Positions 19,040-30,936 of a stretch of 55,615 nucleotides of DNA are shown here, piece by piece. The stretch comes from an uncultured bacterium (GTDB lineage Bacteria > Bacillota > Clostridia > Oscillospirales > Oscillospiraceae). The stretch's first letter is position 1. Each line of letters begins with the position of its first letter. The translations under genes and the position numbers were made by a program. A model generated the notes under the pieces. The model did not search any database, was not told where the DNA came from, and was given only the letters and a program-made list of their open reading frames with translations. The stretch lies in the NCBI GenBank assembly GCA_947073515.1, contig CAMTMC010000011.1:1-55615 (forward strand), written 5' to 3'.

Positions 19040-19068
19040 TTGACAATTCGCTGTCCAGGGACTACAAT
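19040..19068 (+). promoter_or_regulatory. sigma-A promoter of purF
   Basis: TTGACA (19040-19045) and TACAAT (19063-19068) have a 17-bp spacer. Transcription should start near 19075, directly before the hairpin leader. Confidence 0.8.
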
Positions 19069-19076
19069 GCAAATCT

Positions 19077-19127
19077 AAGGCAAAGACGTCTTTGAGAATT
19101 TCTCATAGGTGTCTTTGCCCTTTTTTC
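19077..19127 (+). promoter_or_regulatory. purF leader: ANTAR-type hairpin overlapping a terminator
   Basis: The leader RNA can form AAGGC-[AAAGAC]-GUCUU (19077-19092), a 5-bp stem with a six-base loop having A at position 1 and G at position 4, the loop rule of ANTAR RNA targets. The alternative pairing GGCAAAGAC (19079-19087) with GUCUUUGCC (19111-19119) is followed by CUUUUUU and makes an intrinsic terminator. The two structures are mutually exclusive. The same hairpin occurs before glnN (22685-22739). Control by the ANTAR protein at 20718-21308 is inferred. Confidence 0.7.
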
Positions 19128-19253
19128 TCAAACCATTTGCATCTAAACTCTTTTTTCGTAAATTGGGAGGTTCCAGGGCTCGTTTGAAACGTGCCGATAC
19201 GCCTTTACAAACGGCGCATAGTAAAGCAATAATAATCAAATGGAGGTATGGAA

Positions 19254-20690
19254 ATGAGCATCCATGAGGAATGCGGTGTCTTTGGAGTGATTGCTCCCCG
19301 GCCTGCGGACGTGGGCCGGCTGGCTTATTATGGCCTGTATGCCCTCCAGCACCGAGGACAGGAGAGCTGCGGCATTGTGGTCAACGACGACGGGATATTC
19401 GCCTCCCGCAAGGACCTGGGGCTGGTGGGGGAGGTCTTTTCCGGCGAGACGCTGGACCGGCTGCCCCAAGGGACTATGGCGGTGGGCCATACCCGCTACG
19501 GCACCACCGGGGCCGCCAGCCGGAGCAACTGCCAGCCCATCGAGGTCAATCACCAGAAAGGACATATGGCCCTGGCGCACAACGGAAATCTGAGCAATGC
19601 AGCCCAGCTTCGAGACAAGCTGGAGCTGTCTGGAGCTATCTTCCATGGTACCAGCGATACCGAAATCATTGCCTACCTCGTCACCAGGGAGCGGCTGTCC
19701 ACCCCCTCCATCGAGGATGCCCTCAGTGCGGCCATGAACAGGCTGGAGGGGGCCTACTCCCTGGTGCTCATGTCTTCCCAGAAGCTGATCTGCGCCCGGG
19801 ACCCCAACGGCTTTCGCCCCCTGTGCTATGGAAAAATGGAGGACGGGAGTTATGTGGCTGCCTCCGAGAGCTGTGCTTTGGCCGCTGTAGGGGCGGAGTT
19901 TGTCCGTGACCTGGAGCCGGGAGAGATTTTGGTGTTTTCCAAGGATGGCATCGTATCCCGCCGGGAGCACTGCGGAAAAGCGGAGCCATCCCCCTGCATC
20001 TTTGAGTACATCTACTTTGCCCGGCCCGACTCGGTCATTGACGGGGTGTCCGTCCACGCCGCCCGTCTGCGGGCCGGGGAGATACTGGCCCAGACCCACC
20101 CGGTCCAGGCGGACGTGGTGGTGGGGGTGCCCGACTCCGGGCTGGATGCCGCGTTGGGCTACAGCCATGTGTCTGGCATTCCCTACGGTATCGGCCTCAT
20201 CAAGAACAAGTATATCGGCCGTACCTTTATCGCTCCTGGCCAGGATCACCGCTTGGATCAAGTGAGAATTAAACTCAGCGCTATCCAGGACAGCGTGGCC
20301 GGAAAGCGGGTGGTGCTGGTGGATGACTCCATTGTCCGGGGAACCACCAGCGGCCGAATTGTCAGCCTGCTGCGGGAAGCGGGGGCCCGGGAGGTCCATC
20401 TCCGGGTGTCCGCGCCCCCCTTTCTGAACCCCTGTTATTATGGTACTGACATTGATTCTCGGGAAAACCTCATCGCCTGCCATCACAATGTGGAGGAGAT
20501 TGCCCGGATCATTGGAGTGGATTCTTTGGGTTATCTGCCTGTGGAACAGCTGAGGGCGCTCATTGGGCAGGCGCATTACTGCGGCGCCTGTTTTACTGGG
20601 CTATACCCCACGCCGGTTCCTGTAAACACACGAAAAGACCGCTTTGAACAGAAGCTGTCAGAGAAAAACGCCATAACCTCTCATCAGTAG
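19254..20690 (+). CDS. purF: amidophosphoribosyltransferase
   Basis: The enzyme makes phosphoribosylamine from PRPP and glutamine, the first step of purine synthesis. The chosen ATG (19254) lies six bases after GGAGGT and gives 478 residues; the ATG two codons upstream directly abuts the site. HEECGVFGVI places the N-terminal nucleophile Cys at residue 7 after a short propeptide. VVLVDDSIVRGTTSGRIV is the PRPP loop. Cysteines in CIFEYIYF, ACHHN and YCGACFTG match the Fe-S ligands of the B. subtilis-type enzyme. The leader suggests antitermination control. It stands apart from purC, about 7.5 kb downstream. Confidence 0.96.
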   Translation: MSIHEECGVFGVIAPRPADVGRLAYYGLYALQHRGQESCGIVVNDDGIFASRKDLGLVGEVFSGETLDRLPQGTMAVGHTRYGTTGAASRSNCQPIEVNHQKGHMALAHNGNLSNAAQLRDKLELSGAIFHGTSDTEIIAYLVTRERLSTPSIEDALSAAMNRLEGAYSLVLMSSQKLICARDPNGFRPLCYGKMEDGSYVAASESCALAAVGAEFVRDLEPGEILVFSKDGIVSRREHCGKAEPSPCIFEYIYFARPDSVIDGVSVHAARLRAGEILAQTHPVQADVVVGVPDSGLDAALGYSHVSGIPYGIGLIKNKYIGRTFIAPGQDHRLDQVRIKLSAIQDSVAGKRVVLVDDSIVRGTTSGRIVSLLREAGAREVHLRVSAPPFLNPCYYGTDIDSRENLIACHHNVEEIARIIGVDSLGYLPVEQLRALIGQAHYCGACFTGLYPTPVPVNTRKDRFEQKLSEKNAITSHQ

Positions 20691-20717
20691 CTGCCGGCGG
20701 CTTCTTCCTTGACGTTG

Positions 20718-21308
20718 CTAGGTGTACAGCCGGATAATCTCCTCCGCCACCGTCCGCTTGGCGCAGCATCGGTCCATGGCCTGATGGGTGATGTAGTGGT
20801 GGGCGTCGGGCTCCGACATCTTCAGCTCACTGATGAGTAGCCACTTGGCCCGGTTCACCAGACGAATCTCCTCCATCTTCTCCTCAACGGGCTGGACCTT
20901 CTTCTCATAGCTCCGCAGCCGCTCCCGGGCGGCGGTCATCCAGCTCAGCCCCCGGAGAATGGCGTCCCGGGGGACGGGCCTGGGCAGGACAAATACCCCG
21001 TGCCGCTCCACCCGGCTCCGTATGGGGTCATACAGCGCCGCCGCCGCGAAGAGCAGCACCACCGTCCCCCCTGCGCGGCAGCAGTCGATGGCGAAGCGGA
21101 TGCCGGCGTCGTCGGGGAGGGGGGAGTTGACAAACACAAAGTCGAAGTCCTGGCCGTTTCGGGTGCGCTCCGCCGCCCCTATATGGGAGACCGTGACAAT
21201 AGGGGAGTAGGAGGTCTCAGGCAGAAGGGAGCGCAGGGCGTTTTGAAATTTTTCCGAGGCCGACACAATGAGCACGCTGTAGACCCGCTCCTGTAACTCC
21301 ATACACAT
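20718..21308 (-). CDS. ANTAR-domain RNA-binding response regulator (NitR-like)
   Basis: This protein has 196 residues from the ATG next to GGAGGAGGGG; an ATG two codons on is equally possible. Residues about 8-125 form a receiver-like fold (VYSVLIVSASEKFQ), but the usual acidic pocket and phospho-Asp are poorly kept (FVFVNSPLPDD), so phosphorylation is doubtful. A helix (RSYEKKVQPVEEKMEEIRLV) leads into a C-terminal ANTAR domain (about 145-196): NRAKWLLISELKMSEPDAHH, then ITHQAMDRCCAKRTVAEEII. ANTAR proteins bind paired hairpins in leader RNA and prevent termination. It follows glnA by 24 bp, as in clostridial glnA-nitR operons. Confidence 0.88.
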   Translation of the reverse strand: MCMELQERVYSVLIVSASEKFQNALRSLLPETSYSPIVTVSHIGAAERTRNGQDFDFVFVNSPLPDDAGIRFAIDCCRAGGTVVLLFAAAALYDPIRSRVERHGVFVLPRPVPRDAILRGLSWMTAARERLRSYEKKVQPVEEKMEEIRLVNRAKWLLISELKMSEPDAHHYITHQAMDRCCAKRTVAEEIIRLYT

Positions 21309-21332
21309 CCCCTCCTCCCTCTGAAATCGGCG

Positions 21333-22544
21333 TCATCCCTTAAAATATTCCTCTGCCACCGCCGCCGGGACGGCAGACTGGATAAATTCGCTGGACCGCG
21401 CCGCAACCACCGCCTCCGCCCGGTCCTGGGGCAAAGGCTGGAATCCGGACAGGCTCTCACCATCCGCCTGGTAGAAATTCAGATTGGAGGCAGAGGGCGG
21501 CTCCAATCCCTCCTCAATGCCCCGCAGCCCCGCCTGAATCATCAGGGCGAAGGCCAAATAGGGGTTGGCGGCGGGGTCGGGGGAGCGCAGCTCCGCCCGG
21601 CGGTACTCCCCCACGGCGGCGGGGATGCGTACCAGCTGAGACCGGTTTTCATGGGACCAGGAGATGTATCTGGGGGCCTTGTGGCCGCCGAAGCGGGCAT
21701 AAGATTCCGACGCCGGGTTGAGGAACACCGTCATTTCCCTCACCTTGTCCAGCACCCCGGCCACCATCTGTGGCAGGCGGTCCCGGCCGTCCTCAGCCTT
21801 TACCGACATGTTGATGTGAAAGCCGCTCCCCGGTGCGTCCGCCAGAGGCTTGGGGGAGAAGTCGGCGCACAGGCCGTTGCGCTCTGCGATGAACTTCACA
21901 ATGGCCTGGAAGGTCATCACGTTGTCCGCGGCGGTGAGGGGGTCGGAGTATTTAAAGTCGATCTCATTCTGGCCCGGCCCCTCCTCGTGGTGGGAGCACT
22001 CGGGGGGAATCCCCATGCGGGCCAGGGTCAGGCAGATCTCCCGGCGGATGTTCTCCCCCTTGTCGTCGGGGGCGATGTCCATGTACCCGGCTCTGTCATA
22101 GGGGATTTTGGTGGGCTCGCCGTTTTCGTCCCGTTTAAACAGGTAAAACTCCTGTTCCGCGCCAAAGAGAAAGCGGAAGCCCCGCTGTTCCGCCCGCGCT
22201 ATGGCGTCGCGGAGCAGGGCCCGGGTGTCGCAGGGGAAGGGCCGGCCGTCGGGGTAGTGGATGGAGCAGAACATGCGCACCACCTGCCCGTGCTCCGGCC
22301 GCCAGGGCAGCAGCATCAGGGTGTCCGGGTCGGGCCGGAGCAGCAGGTCAGACCGGGCCTCGTCCCCGAAGCCGGCGATGGCCGAGGCGTCGAAGGCGAT
22401 GCCGTACTCGAAGGCCCGGGACAGCTCCGAGGGCACGATGGAAATGTTCTTCTGCCGCCCGAACACATCGCAGAAGGTCAGGTGGATAAAGGCCACTTCC
22501 TCCTCCTGGACGTACTGAAGCACTTCTTCCCTGGTGTATTTCAT
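21333..22544 (-). CDS. glnA: glutamine synthetase, type I (short form)
   Basis: It condenses ammonia and glutamate to glutamine. The 403 residues are shorter than the roughly 440 of Bacillus GlnA. Motifs seen are HLTFCDVFGRQKNISI in the beta-grasp domain, FLFGAEQEFYLF and EGPGQNEIDFKY (metal-binding Glu residues), GSGFHINMSV (ammonia/metal His), and RIPA with RRAELRSPDPAANPYLAFAL in the active site. The start has GAGGAG 11 bases upstream. A TATAAT lies on this strand before it, with no clear terminator leader. It forms an operon with the ANTAR gene and diverges from glnN. Confidence 0.93.
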   Translation of the reverse strand: MKYTREEVLQYVQEEEVAFIHLTFCDVFGRQKNISIVPSELSRAFEYGIAFDASAIAGFGDEARSDLLLRPDPDTLMLLPWRPEHGQVVRMFCSIHYPDGRPFPCDTRALLRDAIARAEQRGFRFLFGAEQEFYLFKRDENGEPTKIPYDRAGYMDIAPDDKGENIRREICLTLARMGIPPECSHHEEGPGQNEIDFKYSDPLTAADNVMTFQAIVKFIAERNGLCADFSPKPLADAPGSGFHINMSVKAEDGRDRLPQMVAGVLDKVREMTVFLNPASESYARFGGHKAPRYISWSHENRSQLVRIPAAVGEYRRAELRSPDPAANPYLAFALMIQAGLRGIEEGLEPPSASNLNFYQADGESLSGFQPLPQDRAEAVVAARSSEFIQSAVPAAVAEEYFKG

Positions 22545-22647
22545 AACCGCTTCCGCTCCTCTTTATTGAAATTCCCAGGTATTATACCACAGCCCGGGGC
22601 GGTTTTCCACCACAGTGAACAGAATCCTGAAAAAGCGAAAAAACAGG

Positions 22648-22676
22648 TTGACAGCGCCCCGCTCAGGGCGTATAAT
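22648..22676 (+). promoter_or_regulatory. consensus sigma-A promoter of glnN
   Basis: TTGACA (22648-22653), a 17-bp spacer and TATAAT (22671-22676) form a perfect consensus. The predicted start near 22683 puts the regulatory hairpin at the very 5' end of the RNA. Confidence 0.85.
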
Positions 22677-22684
22677 GCGTCCAT

Positions 22685-22739
22685 AAAGGCAAAGACGTCT
22701 TTTAGGTTGATTCCTGAAAGGCGTCTTTGTCTCTTTTTA
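22685..22739 (+). promoter_or_regulatory. glnN leader: ANTAR-type hairpin overlapping a 17-bp terminator stem
   Basis: AAAGGC-[AAAGAC]-GUCUUU (22685-22702) is a 6-bp stem with an A1/G4 hexaloop. The competing stem pairs 22690-22706 with 22713-22729 over 17 positions (two G-U pairs) around the loop UUGAUU, then UCUCUUUUU: a strong intrinsic terminator 40 bp before the glnN start. The hairpin core is identical to that of the purF leader. A second canonical hexaloop hairpin, expected in the standard dual-hairpin ANTAR target, is not obvious; the terminator loop is six bases but lacks A1/G4. Confidence 0.78.
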
Positions 22740-22769: not shown

Positions 22770-24866
22770 ATGGCGGCAGTTCCGGAGTATTTTGGCAGCA
22801 TGGTGTTCGACGACAGGGTGATGAAGGCCAACCTGTCCGCCGAGGTATATCAGTCGTTAAAGAGGACCATTGACCAGGGAGAAAAGCTGAACATCGGGGT
22901 GGCCAACGCCGTGGCGGCGGCCATAAAGGACTGGGCCGTGGCCCATGGGGCGACCCATTTTACCCACTGGTTCCAGCCCCTCACCGGCGTGACCGCCGAG
23001 AAGCACGACAGCTTTATATCCCCCTCCCCCGACGGCGGGGTTATCATGGAGTTCTCCGGAAAGGAGCTGATTCAGGGGGAGCCGGACGCCTCCTCCTTCC
23101 CCTCCGGAGGGCTGCGGGCCACCTTCGAGGCCCGGGGCTACACCGCCTGGGACCCCACCTCCTACGCCTTTCTCAAGGACAGAACCCTGTGCATCCCCAC
23201 CGCCTTCTGCGGCTACAACGGGGAGGCCCTGGACAAAAAGACACCCCTCCTGCGCTCCATGGAGACCCTGAACCGGCAGGCCCTGCGGGTGCTGCGGCTG
23301 TTCGGCAATACAGAGGTGAAGCGGGTAAGCCCCTCCGTGGGCCCGGAACAGGAGTACTTCCTGGTGGACGCGGACATGTGGGCCAAGCGCCGGGACCTGC
23401 GGTTTACCGGCCGGACCCTGTTCGGCGCCCGGCCCCCCAAGGGGCAGGAGATGGACGACCACTATTTTGGCACCATCAAGCCCCGGGTGGCCGCCTATAT
23501 GGCCGATTTGAACAGCGAGCTGTGGGAGCTGGGTATTCTGGCCAAGACCCAGCACAACGAGGTGGCCCCCGCCCAGCATGAGCTGGCCCCCATCTACACC
23601 ACCGTCAACATCGCCACCGACCACAACCAGCTGACCATGGAGCGGATGCAGAAGGTGGCCGCCCGGCACAATCTGGTCTGCCTGCTCCACGAAAAGCCCT
23701 TCGCGGGGGTGAACGGCTCGGGCAAGCACAACAACTGGTCACTGTCCACCGACACCGGGGTAAACCTGCTGTCTCCCGGGGATACCCCCTATGAAAACGC
23801 CCAGTTCCTGCTGTTCCTGTGCGCTGTTCTCAAGGCGGTGGACGACTACCAGGACCTGCTGCGCATCTCGGTGGCCACCGCCGGTAACGACCACCGCCTG
23901 GGGGCCAACGAGGCGCCCCCCGCCGTGGTGTCTGTGTTCCTGGGGGACGAGCTGGCCGCCATTCTGGGCTGCATCGAGTACGACGCCCCCTACACCAGCA
24001 TCGACACCGGCAAGGTTCGGCTGGGGGTGGACGTGCTGCCCAAGTTCCGCCGGGACACCACCGACCGCAACCGCACCTCCCCCTTCGCCTTTACCGGCAA
24101 CAAATTTGAGTTCCGCATGGTGGGCTCGGCCGACTCCATCGCCTGCGCCAATATCATGCTCAACACCGCCGTGGCGGAGAGTTTGCGGGTCTACGCCGAC
24201 CGGCTGGAGGGGGCGGAGGACTTCCAGGCCGCCCTCCAGGCCATGATTCGCAAGACCATTCAGGACCACAAGCGGATTATCTTCAACGGCAACGGCTATG
24301 ACGACGCCTGGATTCGGGAGGCCACCGAGGAGCGGGGGCTGCTGAACTATCCCGCCACGCCCGACTGCGTGCCCCACCTGCTGGACGGGAAAAATGTGGA
24401 ACTGCTCACCTCCCATGGGGTGCTGACTAAGGCGGAGCTGGCATCCCGGTATGAGGTGACGCTGGAGAACTACTGCAAGACGATTATCATCGAGGCCAAC
24501 ACCATGATAGATATGGCCCGCACCGAGATCATTCCCGCCGTTCAGGCCTTTGTCCTGGACGCCGCCAGGACTGCCGCCGCCAAGCGGGAGCTGGTTCCGG
24601 GCTGTCCCTGCGGCTGCGAGACGGAGCTGGTGAAAAAGCTGTCCGCCCTCACCGACCAGATATACCGGGAGGCCGGCGCGCTGGAGAAGGCGGTGCTGGC
24701 TCTGGCCTCCGCCGGAGATATCGGGGCGGAGGCGGAGATGATTCGGGATACGGTGCTGCCCCAAATGGGCCGGCTGCGCCTGCCCTGCGACCGGGCCGAG
24801 ACCCTCACCCCGAAGAAATACTGGCCCTTCCCCACCTACGGCGACCTGCTGTTTGGGGTGAGGTGA
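22770..24866 (+). CDS. glnN: glutamine synthetase, type III
   Basis: This 698-residue GSIII is much longer than GSI. Signatures are [50 protein letters not shown] (metal site), [33 protein letters not shown] and [20 protein letters not shown]. The C-terminal part (about 560-698) is the GSIII-specific helical extension. GAAAGGGTGAAGAAAA precedes the ATG. The gene runs divergently from glnA and has its own terminator-type leader, so the cell can set the two synthetases separately. Confidence 0.96.
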
Positions 24867-24911: not shown

Positions 24912-24936
24912 GCAGGTGGGCAGAAAGAGGAAAGAT

Positions 24937-26517
24937 ATGTGTTCTATCATTGGATATTGCGGCCCCGTGGCCGATTTGGAGACGTTTCAGCGGGGCTTTG
25001 ACCGCACCAGAAGCCGGGGGCCCGACGACAGCCGGGTGGTCCCGGCGGGGGAGGGCCTGCTGGGCTTTCACCGCCTGGCCATCATGGGCCTGACCCCCGA
25101 GGGGATGCAGCCCTTCGAGCTGGAGGGCTGCTATGCTGTCTGTAACGGCGAAATATACGGCTTTGAGAAGCTGAAACGGGAGCTGGAGGAAAAGGGGTAC
25201 GCCTTCCACAGCGGCTCCGACTGCGAGATTCTGCTCCCCCTCTACCGGGAGTACGGGGTGGACATGTTCGCCATGCTGGACGCGGAGTTTGCCTGCATCC
25301 TCTACGACGGGCAGACGGGGGAGTTTATCGCCGCCCGGGATCCCATCGGCATCCGGCCCCTGTACTACGGCTATGACAGCGCCGGGACCATCCTCTTTGC
25401 CAGCGAGCCCAAAAACCTGCTGGGCTTGACGGACCGAATGATGCCATTTCCTCCGGGGCACTACTATAAAGATGGCCGATTTGTCTGCTACCGCGATATT
25501 GCCAGGGTGGACCGGTTCTGTTATGACGGGCTGGAGGAGCTTTGCAGAAGCATCCGGGAGAAGCTGATCGCCGGGGTGGAAAAGCGGCTGGTTTCCGACG
25601 CTAAGGTGGGCTTTCTCCTGTCCGGCGGGCTGGACTCCTCCCTGGTGTGCGCCATCGCCGCCCGCCGGAGCAAAACGCCCATCAAAACCTTTGCCATCGG
25701 TATGGATACCGACGCCATCGACCTGAAATACGCCAGACAGGTGGCGGACTACATCGGTAGCGACCACACCGAGGTCATCATCACCAGAGAGGACGTGCTG
25801 TCCAGCCTGGAGCGGGTGGTGGAGCTGCTGGGCACCTATGACATCACCACCATCCGGGCCAGTATGGGCATGTATCTGCTGTGCAGGGCCATCCATGAAC
25901 AGACAGATATCCGGGTGCTTCTCACAGGGGAAATCTCCGACGAGCTCTTTGGCTACAAATACACCGACTTCGCCCCCTCGCCCCGGGCGTTCCAGGAGGA
26001 GGCGGAGAAGCGGCTGCGGGAGCTGCACATGTACGACGTCCTCCGGGCCGACCGGTGCATCTCAGTGAATTCCCTGGAGGCCCGGGTGCCCTTTGGCGAC
26101 CTGGATTTTGTGGAGTATGTCATGGCTATTGATCCCAAACGGAAGGTAAACACCTACGGCAAGGGCAAATATCTGCTGCGGAAGGCCTTTGAGGGGGATT
26201 GGCTCCCCGAGAGCATTCTGTGGCGGGAGAAGGCGGCCTTCTCTGACGCGGTGGGCCACTCCCTGGTGGATGACCTGAAGGAGTACGCCGAGAGCCGGTA
26301 CACCGACGGGGAGTTTGAACGGTTGCGGCGGAACTATGACCACGCCCGGCCTTTCACCAAGGAGTCTCTGCTCTACCGGGAGATTTTCGAGAAGTTCTAT
26401 CCAGGCCAGAGCAGCATGGTGGCGGATTTCTGGATGCCCAACCGGTCCTGGGCGGGCTGCGACGTGGATGACCCCTCCGCCCGGGTGCTGGCAAACTATG
26501 GGGAGAGCGGGGTGTAG
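24937..26517 (+). CDS. asnB: glutamine-hydrolysing asparagine synthetase
   Basis: The chosen ATG follows GAAAGAGGAAAGAT and makes Cys the second residue (MCSIIGYCG), the required nucleophile after Met removal; 526 residues. The N-terminal glutaminase (about 1-190) has [16 protein letters not shown] and [11 protein letters not shown]. The synthetase domain has [11 protein letters not shown] (PPi loop), [27 protein letters not shown] and [16 protein letters not shown]. It converts aspartate, glutamine and ATP to asparagine. It lies between glnN and guaA, all on the plus strand and all handling the glutamine amide. Confidence 0.95.
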
Positions 26518-26619
26518 GGGGCGGCCTCCGTGCCGCCCCGCCCTTCCCGCGGCTGTTTACCCGGGGCGGCCCAGAGGCCGCCCCCTGCATGATAGGTGAC
26601 CCGCCGAGGTCGGCGGGTC
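26517..26619. repeat. two nested-type GC inverted repeats between asnB and guaA
   Basis: 26517-26528 pairs perfectly with 26574-26585 (GGGGGCGGCCTC, 12 bp), overlapping the last base of the asnB stop. A second palindrome at 26598-26619 has a 10-bp stem (GACCCGCCGA). Neither has a U-tract. They resemble chromosomal REP-like or mRNA-processing elements. Confidence 0.5.
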
Positions 26620-26648
26620 CCACAATATCAATCAGACGGAGAGACATT

Positions 26649-28184
26649 ATGGAAAAAATCCTTATCATCGACTTTGGCGGCCAGTACAACCAGCTCATTG
26701 CCCGGCGGGTGCGGGAGTGCAGGGTATACTGCGAGGTAAAGCCCTGGACCGCGCCTCTGGAGGAATTGAAAGCCTTCGGCCCCACAGGCATTATCTTCAC
26801 CGGCGGGCCCCAGTCGGTCTATCGGGAGGGCTCCCCCGCCGTGGACAAGTCGATTTTCACCTGGGGGGTGCCCATTCTGGGCATCTGCTACGGCTGTCAG
26901 CTCATGGCCCATCTGCTGGGGGGAGAGGTCGTCCCGGCCCAGGACGACTCCGCCCGAGAGTATGGCAAGACCCTTACCCACTACGCTGTCGCCTGTAAGC
27001 TGTTCCAGGGCCTGCCCCGGGAAGGGGTGTCCTGGATGAGCCACGGGGACTACATGTCCAAGGTTCCGGTGGGCTTCTCTCTCGCCGCCCGCAGCGGCGC
27101 CTGCCCCAACGCGGCCATCGCCGACGAGGCCCGGGGGTTTTACGGCGTCCAGTTCCACCCCGAGGTCAGCCACACGGAGCACGGCCTGGATATGCTCCGG
27201 AATTTCCTCTACGGCGTCTGCGGCGCTGCGGGGGACTGGACCATGGGGGACTATAAAAACACCATTCTCCAGACCGTCCAGGAAAAGGTGGGGGGTGGCC
27301 GGGTGCTGCTGGCCCTGTCCGGCGGGGTGGACTCCTCCGTGGCGGCTGCCCTGCTGGCCGTGGCGGTGGGCAGGCAGCTTACCTGCGTCTTTGTGGACCA
27401 CGGCCTGATGCGCCTCAACGAGGGGGACGAGGTAGAGGCCGCCTTCGCCCCCTGGGATATCAACTTTGTCCGGGTGGACGCCGGGGACCGCTTCCTGACA
27501 AAGCTGGCCGGGGTCACCGACCCGGAGGAGAAGCGGAAGATCATCGGGGAGGAGTTTATCCGGGTCTTTGAGGAGGAGGCCAAGAAGATCGGCGCGGTGG
27601 ATTTTCTGGCCCAGGGCACCATCTACCCCGACGTGATTGAGTCGGGAACAGGCGAGGCCGCCGTTATCAAGAGCCACCACAACGTGGGCGGCCTGCCCGA
27701 CTGTGTGGACTTTCAGGAGATTCTAGAACCCCTGCGCCTGCTCTTTAAGGACGAGGTCCGCCAGCTGGGCCGGGAGCTGGGCCTGCCCGAGTATCTGGTG
27801 AGCCGCCAGCCCTACCCAGGGCCGGGCTTGGCCATCCGCATCCTTGGGGAGGTCACCAGGGAAAAGGCGGATCAGCTCCGTCAAGCTGATTTTATCTTCC
27901 GGGAGGAGCTGGCCAGGGCGGGGGAGGACCGGCGGCTCAGCCAGTATTTTGCCGTCCTTACCGACAGCAGGTCGGTGGGGGTGATGGGGGACGGCCGCAC
28001 CTATAACTACACCCTGGCCCTCCGGGCGGTGACCACCTCCGACTTCATGACCGCCGGCTGGGCTCGCATCCCCTATGACCTGCTGGACAGAATCAGCACC
28101 CGCATTGTCAATGAGGTGGCGGGCATCAACCGCATTGTGTACGATATCACCAGTAAGCCCCCAGCCACGGTGGAATGGGAGTGA
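26649..28184 (+). CDS. guaA: GMP synthase (glutamine-hydrolysing)
   Basis: It converts XMP, glutamine and ATP to GMP. The chosen ATG (GGAGAGACATT upstream) gives 511 residues. The class I glutaminase domain has [15 protein letters not shown] with Cys80, and FHPEVSHTE with the His-Glu pair. The ATP-pyrophosphatase domain has [14 protein letters not shown]. The C-terminal dimerisation domain ends in [20 protein letters not shown], the usual family ending. purC follows 17 bp downstream, so co-transcription is likely. Confidence 0.97.
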
Positions 28185-28201
28185 AAAAGGAGGAGCACAG
28201 G

Positions 28202-28915
28202 ATGGAAAAACAGGAGCTACTCTATGAGGGTAAGGCAAAAAAGGTATATACGACTCAGGACCCAAAACTTCTGATTGTTGCTTATAAGGATGACGCCACC
28301 GCCTTCAATGGCCAGAAAAAGGGCACTATCCACGGTAAGGGAGCCATCAACAACCGGATGACTAACCTGCTCATGGACCGGCTGGAGCGGGAGGGCATTC
28401 CCACCCATCTGGTGGAGGAACTGAGCGGCCGGGAGACGCTGGTAAAAAAAGTGTCCATCATCCCTGTGGAGGTCATCGTGCGCAACATCGCCGCCGGTTC
28501 CTTCTCCAAGCGGTACGGCGTGGAGGAGGGGGTGGTCTTTGACGCCCCGACCCTAGAGTTTTCCTACAAAAACGACGATTTAGGCGACCCTCTTCTCAAC
28601 GACGACCACGCCCTCGCCCTGGGGCTGGCCAGCCGGGAGGAACTGGCTCTCATCCGGAAATACTCTCTGAACGTTAACCGCCTGCTCAGGGAAATCTGGG
28701 GGGCCTGCGGCATTACCTTGGTGGACTTTAAGGTGGAGTTTGGCCGCCTGGAGGACGGAACCATCGTGCTGGCCGACGAGATCAGCCCCGATACCTGCCG
28801 GCTGTGGAATTCCAAAACCCTGGAGAGGATGGACAAGGACCGGTTCCGCCGGGACCTGGGCGGCGTGGAGGAGGCCTATGTCCAGGTGATGAATCGGCTG
28901 ACCGGGGGCCTGTGA
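28202..28915 (+). CDS. purC: SAICAR synthetase
   Basis: It joins CAIR and aspartate in purine synthesis, step eight. The ATG behind AAAAAGGAGGAGCACAGG gives 237 residues, normal for the family. Signatures are LLYEGKAKKVY, DDATAFNGQKKG, EVIVRNIAAGSFSKRYGVEE, LVDFKVEFGR, LADEISPDTCRLWN and DKDRFRRDLGG. Its location between guaA and pyrG, away from the other de novo purine genes, is unusual for a pur gene. Confidence 0.96.
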   Translation: MEKQELLYEGKAKKVYTTQDPKLLIVAYKDDATAFNGQKKGTIHGKGAINNRMTNLLMDRLEREGIPTHLVEELSGRETLVKKVSIIPVEVIVRNIAAGSFSKRYGVEEGVVFDAPTLEFSYKNDDLGDPLLNDDHALALGLASREELALIRKYSLNVNRLLREIWGACGITLVDFKVEFGRLEDGTIVLADEISPDTCRLWNSKTLERMDKDRFRRDLGGVEEAYVQVMNRLTGGL

Positions 28916-30529
<1,614 letters not shown>

Positions 30530-30690
30530 TATACTAATTTTTGAGAATGTTTATCCAAATATCGCTCCTGTCCTGGCATTTCCTGAGCTGTCGTTTTTAT
30601 AATATTCTGCCCTTATGGTTAGATAGCGTCTGCCCAAGAGACGGGTATTATGATAGAATGGAACTATCTTAAAAGACAGGGGACAGCAAG

Positions 30691-30936
30691 ATGGAAGCAT
30701 CCTATCACAGACACGACATAAACGATAAAGTATGGGAGTTGCTTGGACCACATCTGCCGAGACAACGAGGCCAGTGGGGTGGGATTGCTCAGGATAACCG
30801 CTGTTTTATTAACGCAGTGTTTTAGGTATTGCGAACCGGAGCACCCTGGCGTGACCTGTCTCCCAATTACGGGAAGGGGGCAGCGTTCATCAGAGGTTGC
30901 TGCCGTCTCTGGGCTGCCAATATTCCTCCAGTGTAA
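30691..30936 (+). pseudogene. IS5-family transposase remnant
   Basis: Reading from ATG 30691 gives HDINDKVWELLGPHLPRQRG, then QWGGIAQDNRCFINAVF, a TAG at 30823-30825 where Trp is expected, then VLRTGAPWRDLSPNYG. This is the N-terminal DUF4096 region of IS5-type transposases. The reading ends at the TAA where a MITE begins, so the DDE catalytic part is gone. Upstream, 30530-30690 is AT-rich with no gene seen and may be the rest of the IS left flank. Confidence 0.75.

Follow-up and report, generated by a model that had tools for sequence, protein, structure and literature searches.

Predicted single-hexaloop ANTAR attenuators ahead of purF and a glnN-led gene set in an uncultured Oscillospiraceae bacterium

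In the eut leaders of Enterococcus faecalis, the ANTAR protein EutV recognizes a six-base loop (hexaloop) with A at position 1 and G at position 4 (A1/G4), conserved closing pairs and an overlap with the left arm of a terminator (PMC3369931, PMC8934654). The eut leaders have two such hairpins, P1 and P2, and both hexaloops are reported to be obligatory for antitermination in vivo, although the EutV structure is a dimer holding one hexaloop (PMC8934654). The nearest system by function is the ANTAR protein NitR of C. saccharobutylicum, which is tied to glutamine synthetase (GS) genes, acts by antitermination and is reported to induce GS and glutamate synthase (GOGAT) genes when nitrogen is limiting (PMC6316151). 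Here we analysed a stretch of 55,615 nucleotides (nt) from an uncultured member of the Oscillospiraceae (GCA_947073515.1, contig CAMTMC010000011.1), referred to below as the window, in which two leaders, one ahead of the amidophosphoribosyltransferase gene purF and one ahead of the type III GS gene glnN, lie on either side of a gene for an ANTAR regulator. Judged from their sequences, the two leaders are very probably ANTAR-controlled transcription attenuators of a single-hexaloop kind.

Other described systems share part of this arrangement. The regulon of Desulfotomaculum acetoxidans comprises many ANTAR elements on nitrogen genes, and glutamine and glutamate synthases were among the matches across bacteria (Ramesh 2012); that regulon was defined by a dual-hairpin motif, unlike the leaders described here. 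An ANTAR gene of C. thermocellum, Clo1313_2030, lies in one cluster with genes for glutamate synthase subunits and with the annotated GS gene Clo1313_2031 (PMC4676874), and looks like a further case. In comparison with the targets reported for NitR, those found here add purF, asnB, guaA, purC, pyrG, gdhA and a type III GS, with single-hexaloop leaders at +1. The word purF is absent from the main text of Ramesh 2012, and section 10 of that paper does not contain asnB, guaA or pyrG. By title or opening of the abstract, no paper was found that links ANTAR to purF, and one Acinetobacter gene-dependence study contains both words.

Anatomy and folding of the two leaders

Both leaders, on the forward strand, share one plan, in which a strong sigma-70-type promoter is followed 8 nt past the -10 box by a hairpin at or next to the predicted +1 (start sites were predicted from the promoter scan), and this hairpin sits within the left arm of an intrinsic terminator. 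The purF leader has the promoter TTGACA-17-TACAAT (19040..19068; -35 at 19040-19045, -10 at 19063-19068; 11/12 in the consensus scan), a predicted hexaloop antiterminator hairpin of five base pairs, AAGGC-AAAGAC-GUCUU (19077..19092, loop at 19082-19087), and by folding an intrinsic terminator with its U-run at 19079..19126 (stem-loop 19079-19119, U-run 19121-19126). The glnN leader has the promoter TTGACA-17-TATAAT (22648..22676; -35 at 22648-22653, -10 at 22671-22676; 12/12), a predicted hexaloop antiterminator hairpin of six base pairs, AAAGGC-AAAGAC-GUCUUU (22685..22702, loop at 22691-22696), and a terminator at 22687..22738 (stem-loop 22687-22732, U-run at about 22733-22738). In each, the six-base loop AAAGAC supplies A1 and G4, and the stem has the three or more base pairs of a dual-hexaloop-motif hairpin. 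The initial annotation had placed an AAAGAC hexaloop closed by GGC/GUC in the terminator left arm, a few bases past a good promoter. The promoter scan and the folding confirmed this placement, and the GGC/GUC pairs are present, but the stem is longer than annotated by added A-U pairs. The loop and closing pair are the same as those reported for the EutV target.

The purF terminator folded at -23.6 kcal/mol (z -6.8) and the glnN terminator at -31.1 kcal/mol (z -9.5), and no shuffle was equally stable in either case. Folded alone, the purF hexaloop hairpin had -2.6 kcal/mol. Folding of the nascent RNA, in which the leader was lengthened in 3-nt steps and the minimum free energy fold taken each time, gave the hexaloop hairpin as the best fold at 20-35 nt in the glnN leader and at 17, 20, 32, and 35 nt in the purF leader. 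From 38 nt on, the terminator displaced the hexaloop in both. Retention of the hexaloop reduced the terminator energy to -8.7 from -23.6 kcal/mol in purF and to -10.8 from -31.1 kcal/mol in glnN. Because the hairpin precedes the terminator takeover in these folds, a protein bound to the nascent hexaloop would have a time window of about 15-20 nt of transcription.

The sequence GGCAAAGRCGTCTTT, allowing at most one mismatch, has two sites in the 2.38 Mb genome, both of which are these leaders; the backward control gave one match. Four weak matches of the leader model R2 elsewhere in the genome (E 0.057 to 0.86) lack the plan of promoter plus hexaloop and were rejected, so that the regulon detected in this genome consists of the two leaders. 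At the gathering score, the window has no Rfam match. Matches at a lax threshold (a trpB motif with 22 of 59 bits and microRNA precursors) were far under the cut-off and were taken as chance, and glutamine riboswitches were dropped as they had no Rfam match in the window.

Hexaloop recurrence, hexaloop number and stem covariation in relatives

To assess how often the hexaloop recurs, loci retrieved through ANTAR or purF were scanned, blind to the motif, for strong terminators that start at a promoter. A C-G-closed A1/G4 hexaloop was present in 27 of 32 promoter-proximal terminators, an uncorrected count that includes six rows from stretches extended to reach motif matches (L144, L145, and L153). 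Without those rows the count was 21 of 26, compared with a shuffle mean of 0.39 and a largest value of 3 in 1000 shuffles; of the five misses, one lies within an ANTAR coding region, one has a G1 loop (glnN of G012) and three carry an A.C mismatch at stem pair 2 or 3. Eighty named ANTAR loci, mostly from Clostridia, provided 42 sites, and the 24 that were near-unique and unlike the earlier ones were used. All 24 of these new leaders had the C-G-closed A1/G4 hexaloop (shuffle mean 0.44, largest 4 in 300). It was also found in 43 of 48 leaders of a larger set, a proportion inflated by L004-L062, which were collected with the motif or with model R1; in the 43 leaders the hairpin stem begins 4-15 nt past the -10 box, with a median of 8. 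A distant group within the genus, whose glnN promoters score 8-9/12 and whose leaders by eye mostly bear a hexaloop, is outside these counts. An alignment made from 29 loci (A1) omitted L004, L008, L009, L011, and L014, where no terminator follows, and L026, a near copy of L018; antisense model matches on near-palindromes were ignored.

The initial annotation had noticed one canonical hexaloop in each of the two leaders instead of two, which proved right here and in relatives as well. None of the 26 and none of the 24 leaders contained a further C-G-closed A1/G4 hexaloop, and in the larger set another A1/G4 six-base loop was present in 6 of 48, never closed by C-G. The P1 plus P2 organization of the dual-hexaloop ANTAR motif was therefore not found. 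These counts make it improbable that the leaders are classical dual-hexaloop attenuators whose P1 was missed, either through a start further upstream or because P1 is non-canonical, and near-consensus promoters in the counted leaders put the predicted starts too close to leave room for P1. The need of EutV for two hexaloops speaks for such an arrangement, as do a possible weak second loop, cuu-AAGGGA-aag, in the glnA leader of G045 and the glnN leaders of three genomes outside the genus (G039, G050, and G054; L144, L157-L158, and L153), which contain two whole attenuators in series. Serial attenuators of this kind are unlike a P1 and P2 joined by a short linker.

Both sides of the hexaloop stem lie within the same terminator arm, and the stem can thus be tested apart from the terminator. 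In an alignment of 26 hand-picked leaders (A2), most of which showed the hexaloop so that the paired percentage leans upward, 96.9% of stem cells were paired. Compensatory cells, with both sides changed, numbered 19 compared with 4.7 in shuffles, and the covariation score was 0.545 compared with 0.265 +/- 0.029 when shuffled and at most 0.199 when slid. The numbers of pairs with a double change and of further pair types were matched by 254 and 56 of 500 shuffles, respectively. The closing C-G pair was present in 26 of 26 leaders and was followed by A-U or G.U in 25 of 26. Among the stems seen across the leaders are aaggc/gucuu, gagac/gucuc, ugaac/guuca, augagc/guucau, ggac/gucc, and cagc/gcug. 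Because the 26 leaders had been picked, the test was repeated without requiring a stem. Of 50 motif-independent leaders, 48 had the pattern C-ANNGNN-G within the left terminator arm, and among these 48, pairs 2-5 were formed in 47, 46, 47, and 32; when the 3' sides were dealt anew, the means were 43.9, 36.1, 32.4, and 18.8 and the largest values 48, 41, 39, and 29. One glnN leader (G015) is aligned in A2 as aagac-GAUGGU-gucuu and was taken by the motif-blind count as ccauc-AAAGAC-gaugg. The initial annotation had staked its proposal on covariation of this stem, and covariation was present in A2 and in the 48 leaders.

A self-complementary and covarying left arm is not needed by a terminator, and this argues against plain terminators that end upstream transcripts and resemble each other through recent duplication, an explanation we rate as slightly more improbable again than a missed P1. 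It would account for the fact that both hairpins are good intrinsic terminators and that the two copies are close in sequence. However, a near-perfect promoter lies just upstream of each hairpin, which begins at about +1, and the same plan is found with unlike sequences on genes of one metabolic area in several families. A DNA operator that binds a repressor beside the -10 box is very unlikely, even though AAAGACGTCTTT is a perfect DNA palindrome in both leaders, since AAAGGCGTCTTT, likewise frequent in relatives, is not symmetric, and gagac-ATTGGC-gtctc and cagc-AAGGGC-gctg preserve the RNA hairpin and not the operator.

Co-occurrence with ANTAR genes and the range of targets

Among 394 genomes of the order, model R2 (E of at most 1e-4) matched 144, and an ANTAR gene was detected in 233 (231 above the curated cut-off). 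ANTAR was present in 131 of the 144 genomes with the element compared with 102 of the 250 without it (Fisher p of about 1e-24, in which independence is overstated as the genomes are related). Of 64 genomes of the genus, 35 had an R1 match, and ANTAR was present in 42 of 60 relatives; diverged leaders account for part of this gap.

When the best open frame downstream of each leader was taken as its target, the motif-blind leaders preceded glnN, asnB, purF, glnA, pyrG, and a class II amidotransferase, which is probably the amidotransferase part of glutamate synthase (PF00310; all NCBIfam matches were below their cut-offs). Further targets were the glutamate dehydrogenase gene gdhA, and guaA and purC with one leader each. 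A gene for the large subunit of glutamate synthase (L139) follows a mismatched form of the leader. The identified targets thus belong nearly all to glutamine and glutamate metabolism, purC being the exception. The genus has 45 copies of purF in 44 of 64 genomes, the window's own genome included. The hexaloop leader of purF was also found in two other families (L175 and L197), and purF leaders made up three of the 24 new motif-blind leaders. With purF leaders in congeners and other families, and with elements that track ANTAR genes, the ANTAR-type control of purF and glnN suggested by the initial annotation is supported at the level of sequence.

Several observations weigh against single-hexaloop ANTAR attenuation. 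EutV antitermination in vivo is reported to require both hexaloops, and for this reason a single one at +1 might not persist long enough to serve as a target. At 23-29 nt of the purF leader, the hexaloop has a competitor of about equal stability, a CAAAG/CUUUG hairpin. The antisense control had such a loop in 9 of 48 terminators too. The glnN loop of G012 begins with G and is an exception to A1/G4, and by eye the glnN loops of G010 and G027 have C at position 4. In four leaders (L123, L139, L116, and L117), an A.C mismatch takes the place of pair 2 or 3 of the hexaloop stem and may represent a stem variant. No ANTAR match was found in 13 of the 144 genomes with the element, nine of which are more than 90% complete; missed or lost ANTAR genes or chance matches are possible reasons. 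Conversely, 102 ANTAR genomes had no R2 match. Finally, 30 purF loci were read within the genus: ten had the hexaloop leader and two its A.C-mismatched form, and the remainder comprised nine without a promoter-proximal terminator, four within an operon after asnB or purC, four with another terminator and one that was unclear. Since only part of the loci in the genus carry the leader, together with loci of other families, purF control appears to be recurrent and not universal.

Upstream of purF in nine congeners without an attenuator (L098-L103 and L105-L107), a small open reading frame (ORF) of about 17 amino acids was observed about 100-150 nt before the gene. By eye, it is of the MKKLADFLSEYYGTFSR or the MKKLWKMLDEYYRTFAR type and is followed by two possible hairpins.

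The genes, the regulator and its GlnA-like neighbour

The purF gene (19248..20690, forward strand; TIGR01134 520.8 bits, cut-off 350) follows its leader. Downstream of the glnN leader, also on the forward strand and tightly spaced, are glnN (22770..24866; PF12437, PF18318, and PF00120), asnB for asparagine synthase (ORF 24916..26517, start perhaps at about 24938; PF00733 and PF13537), guaA for GMP synthase (ORF 26589..28184, start perhaps at about 26650; PF00958 and PF00117), purC for SAICAR synthetase (28175..28915; PF01259), and pyrG for CTP synthase (28928..30529; PF06418 and PF00117). We infer that the five genes form one operon with glnN as its first gene; the set encodes one glutamine maker, three glutamine amidotransferases and one purine enzyme. 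The four genes that follow glnN, and the abnormality of the GlnA-like protein described below, go beyond the initial annotation. Past pyrG, positions 30660-30920 of the window look by eye like the remnant of a transposase gene. The genome has a second type III GS gene (contig C39, 22386-22892; L201), in whose short leader no such hexaloop was found. Between the two leaders, on the opposite strand, lie the GlnA-like gene (21333..22544) and the ANTAR gene (20718..21308), with a likely promoter for both at 22581..22609 (reverse strand; 10/12 in the consensus scan). The sequence of the short leader after this promoter contains no attenuator.

The position of an ANTAR regulator between the leaders together with glnA had been annotated initially and was confirmed. 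The protein (196 aa; identified by PF03861, alignment and predicted fold) is the genome's sole PF03861 match (53.9 bits, cut-off 27.3) and is encoded about 1.4 kb from the glnN leader. Its C-terminal ANTAR domain follows a receiver-like domain and a coiled coil, with a long helix at 114-162. The predicted fold (predicted local distance difference test, pLDDT, 88.5; predicted template modelling score, pTM, 0.67) was nearest by Foldseek to Rv1626, EutV in its free and RNA-bound forms, and AmiR. The receiver-like domain has Asn at the place of the phosphorylated Asp (FVNSPLPD), as do 18 of 23 aligned proteins including that of the window; two have Asp and three Gly or Ala. The regulator is thus a pseudo-receiver protein and lacks the phosphorylatable receiver of EutV, which is activated by phosphorylation; AmiR-type proteins do not need one. 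Met178 and His170 are invariant in the ANTAR alignment and, assigned by spacing, would correspond to Met172 and Tyr164 of EutV. AmiR of Pseudomonas aeruginosa, a pseudo-receiver ANTAR protein under a partner protein, also has His at the place that this assignment gives to Tyr164. The partner of AmiR is AmiC, whereas the neighbour here is a GlnA-like protein.

The GlnA-like protein of the window, of 403 aa, has GGHKAP in place of the flap sequence PGYEAP and has no C-terminal tail. The flap Glu of type I GS (Glu304 in B. subtilis, Glu307 in M. mazei) is therefore Lys, and the match to TIGR00653 is 328 bits against a cut-off of 429, short of a full-length type I GS. Such a neighbour of 390-429 aa is present at 78 of the 80 named ANTAR loci (L203-L282), which were fetched as relatives of the window ANTAR protein, so that the neighbour counts speak for that clade. 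None of the 78 neighbours has Glu in the flap; 74 have Lys there, two Arg and one Met, and one has a gap. All 78 lack the feedback Arg, 77 retain the Asp of the D50 loop and 78 retain both Glu and Arg of the ELR motif, so that metal-site residues are kept. More distant ANTAR loci have an ordinary GlnA of 438-443 aa with Glu in 16 of 35 rows. In a feedback-inhibited GS, glutamine is held by Glu304 and Arg62 (PMC9249791), and since the equivalents of both are gone, the GlnA-like protein, by its sequence, is unlikely to synthesize or to sense glutamine as a usual GS does. With two type III GS genes, the genome may be able to do without catalysis by GlnA. The simplest guess, by analogy, is that the GlnA-like protein is a partner or sensor of the ANTAR protein as AmiC is to AmiR. 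In Bacillus and relatives, a GS likewise senses glutamine on behalf of a regulator whose gene is adjacent (GlnR/TnrA), but GlnR is a repressor and the GS there is a working enzyme with the Glu304 and Arg62 lost here (PMC9249791).

In the attenuation mechanism we propose, RNA polymerase would start at, or a few bases before, the hexaloop hairpin. An unbound hexaloop would be unzipped once the right arm of the terminator emerges, from about nt 38 on, and transcription would stop. By analogy with EutV, an active form of the ANTAR protein encoded beside glnA would bind the lone hexaloop earlier and hold the left arm, giving antitermination with read-through into purF or into glnN-asnB-guaA-purC-pyrG. 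The regulon would then join the glutamine maker with enzymes that mostly spend its amide. From the behaviour of NitR, induction would be expected under shortage of nitrogen or glutamine, and the signal would pass through the GlnA-like partner rather than through phosphorylation. A more specific scheme of a new glutamine-sensing circuit is tentative, and we hold it with clearly less than even confidence: a GS turned sensor, with flap Glu, feedback Arg, and tail lost and the metal site kept, contacts the pseudo-receiver ANTAR protein, which acts on lone hexaloops at the 5' end of mRNAs and thereby adjusts glutamine supply (glnN) along with the main consumers purF, asnB, guaA, pyrG, and glutamate synthase.

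As judged from these sequences, in this bacterium and its relatives one RNA-binding regulator seems to govern the making and use of glutamine, purine synthesis included, through single-loop RNA switches. EutV is said to need both hexaloops while its dimer holds one, and the purpose of P1 could be examined naturally in these leaders of biosynthetic genes, which have a single hexaloop at +1. The abnormal GS is pointed to as a likely sensor. ANTAR control would thereby extend from nitrogen assimilation to the first step of purine synthesis and to the synthesis of asparagine, GMP, and CTP. The Clostridia concerned, as judged from record titles, derive in many cases from samples of gut and rumen.

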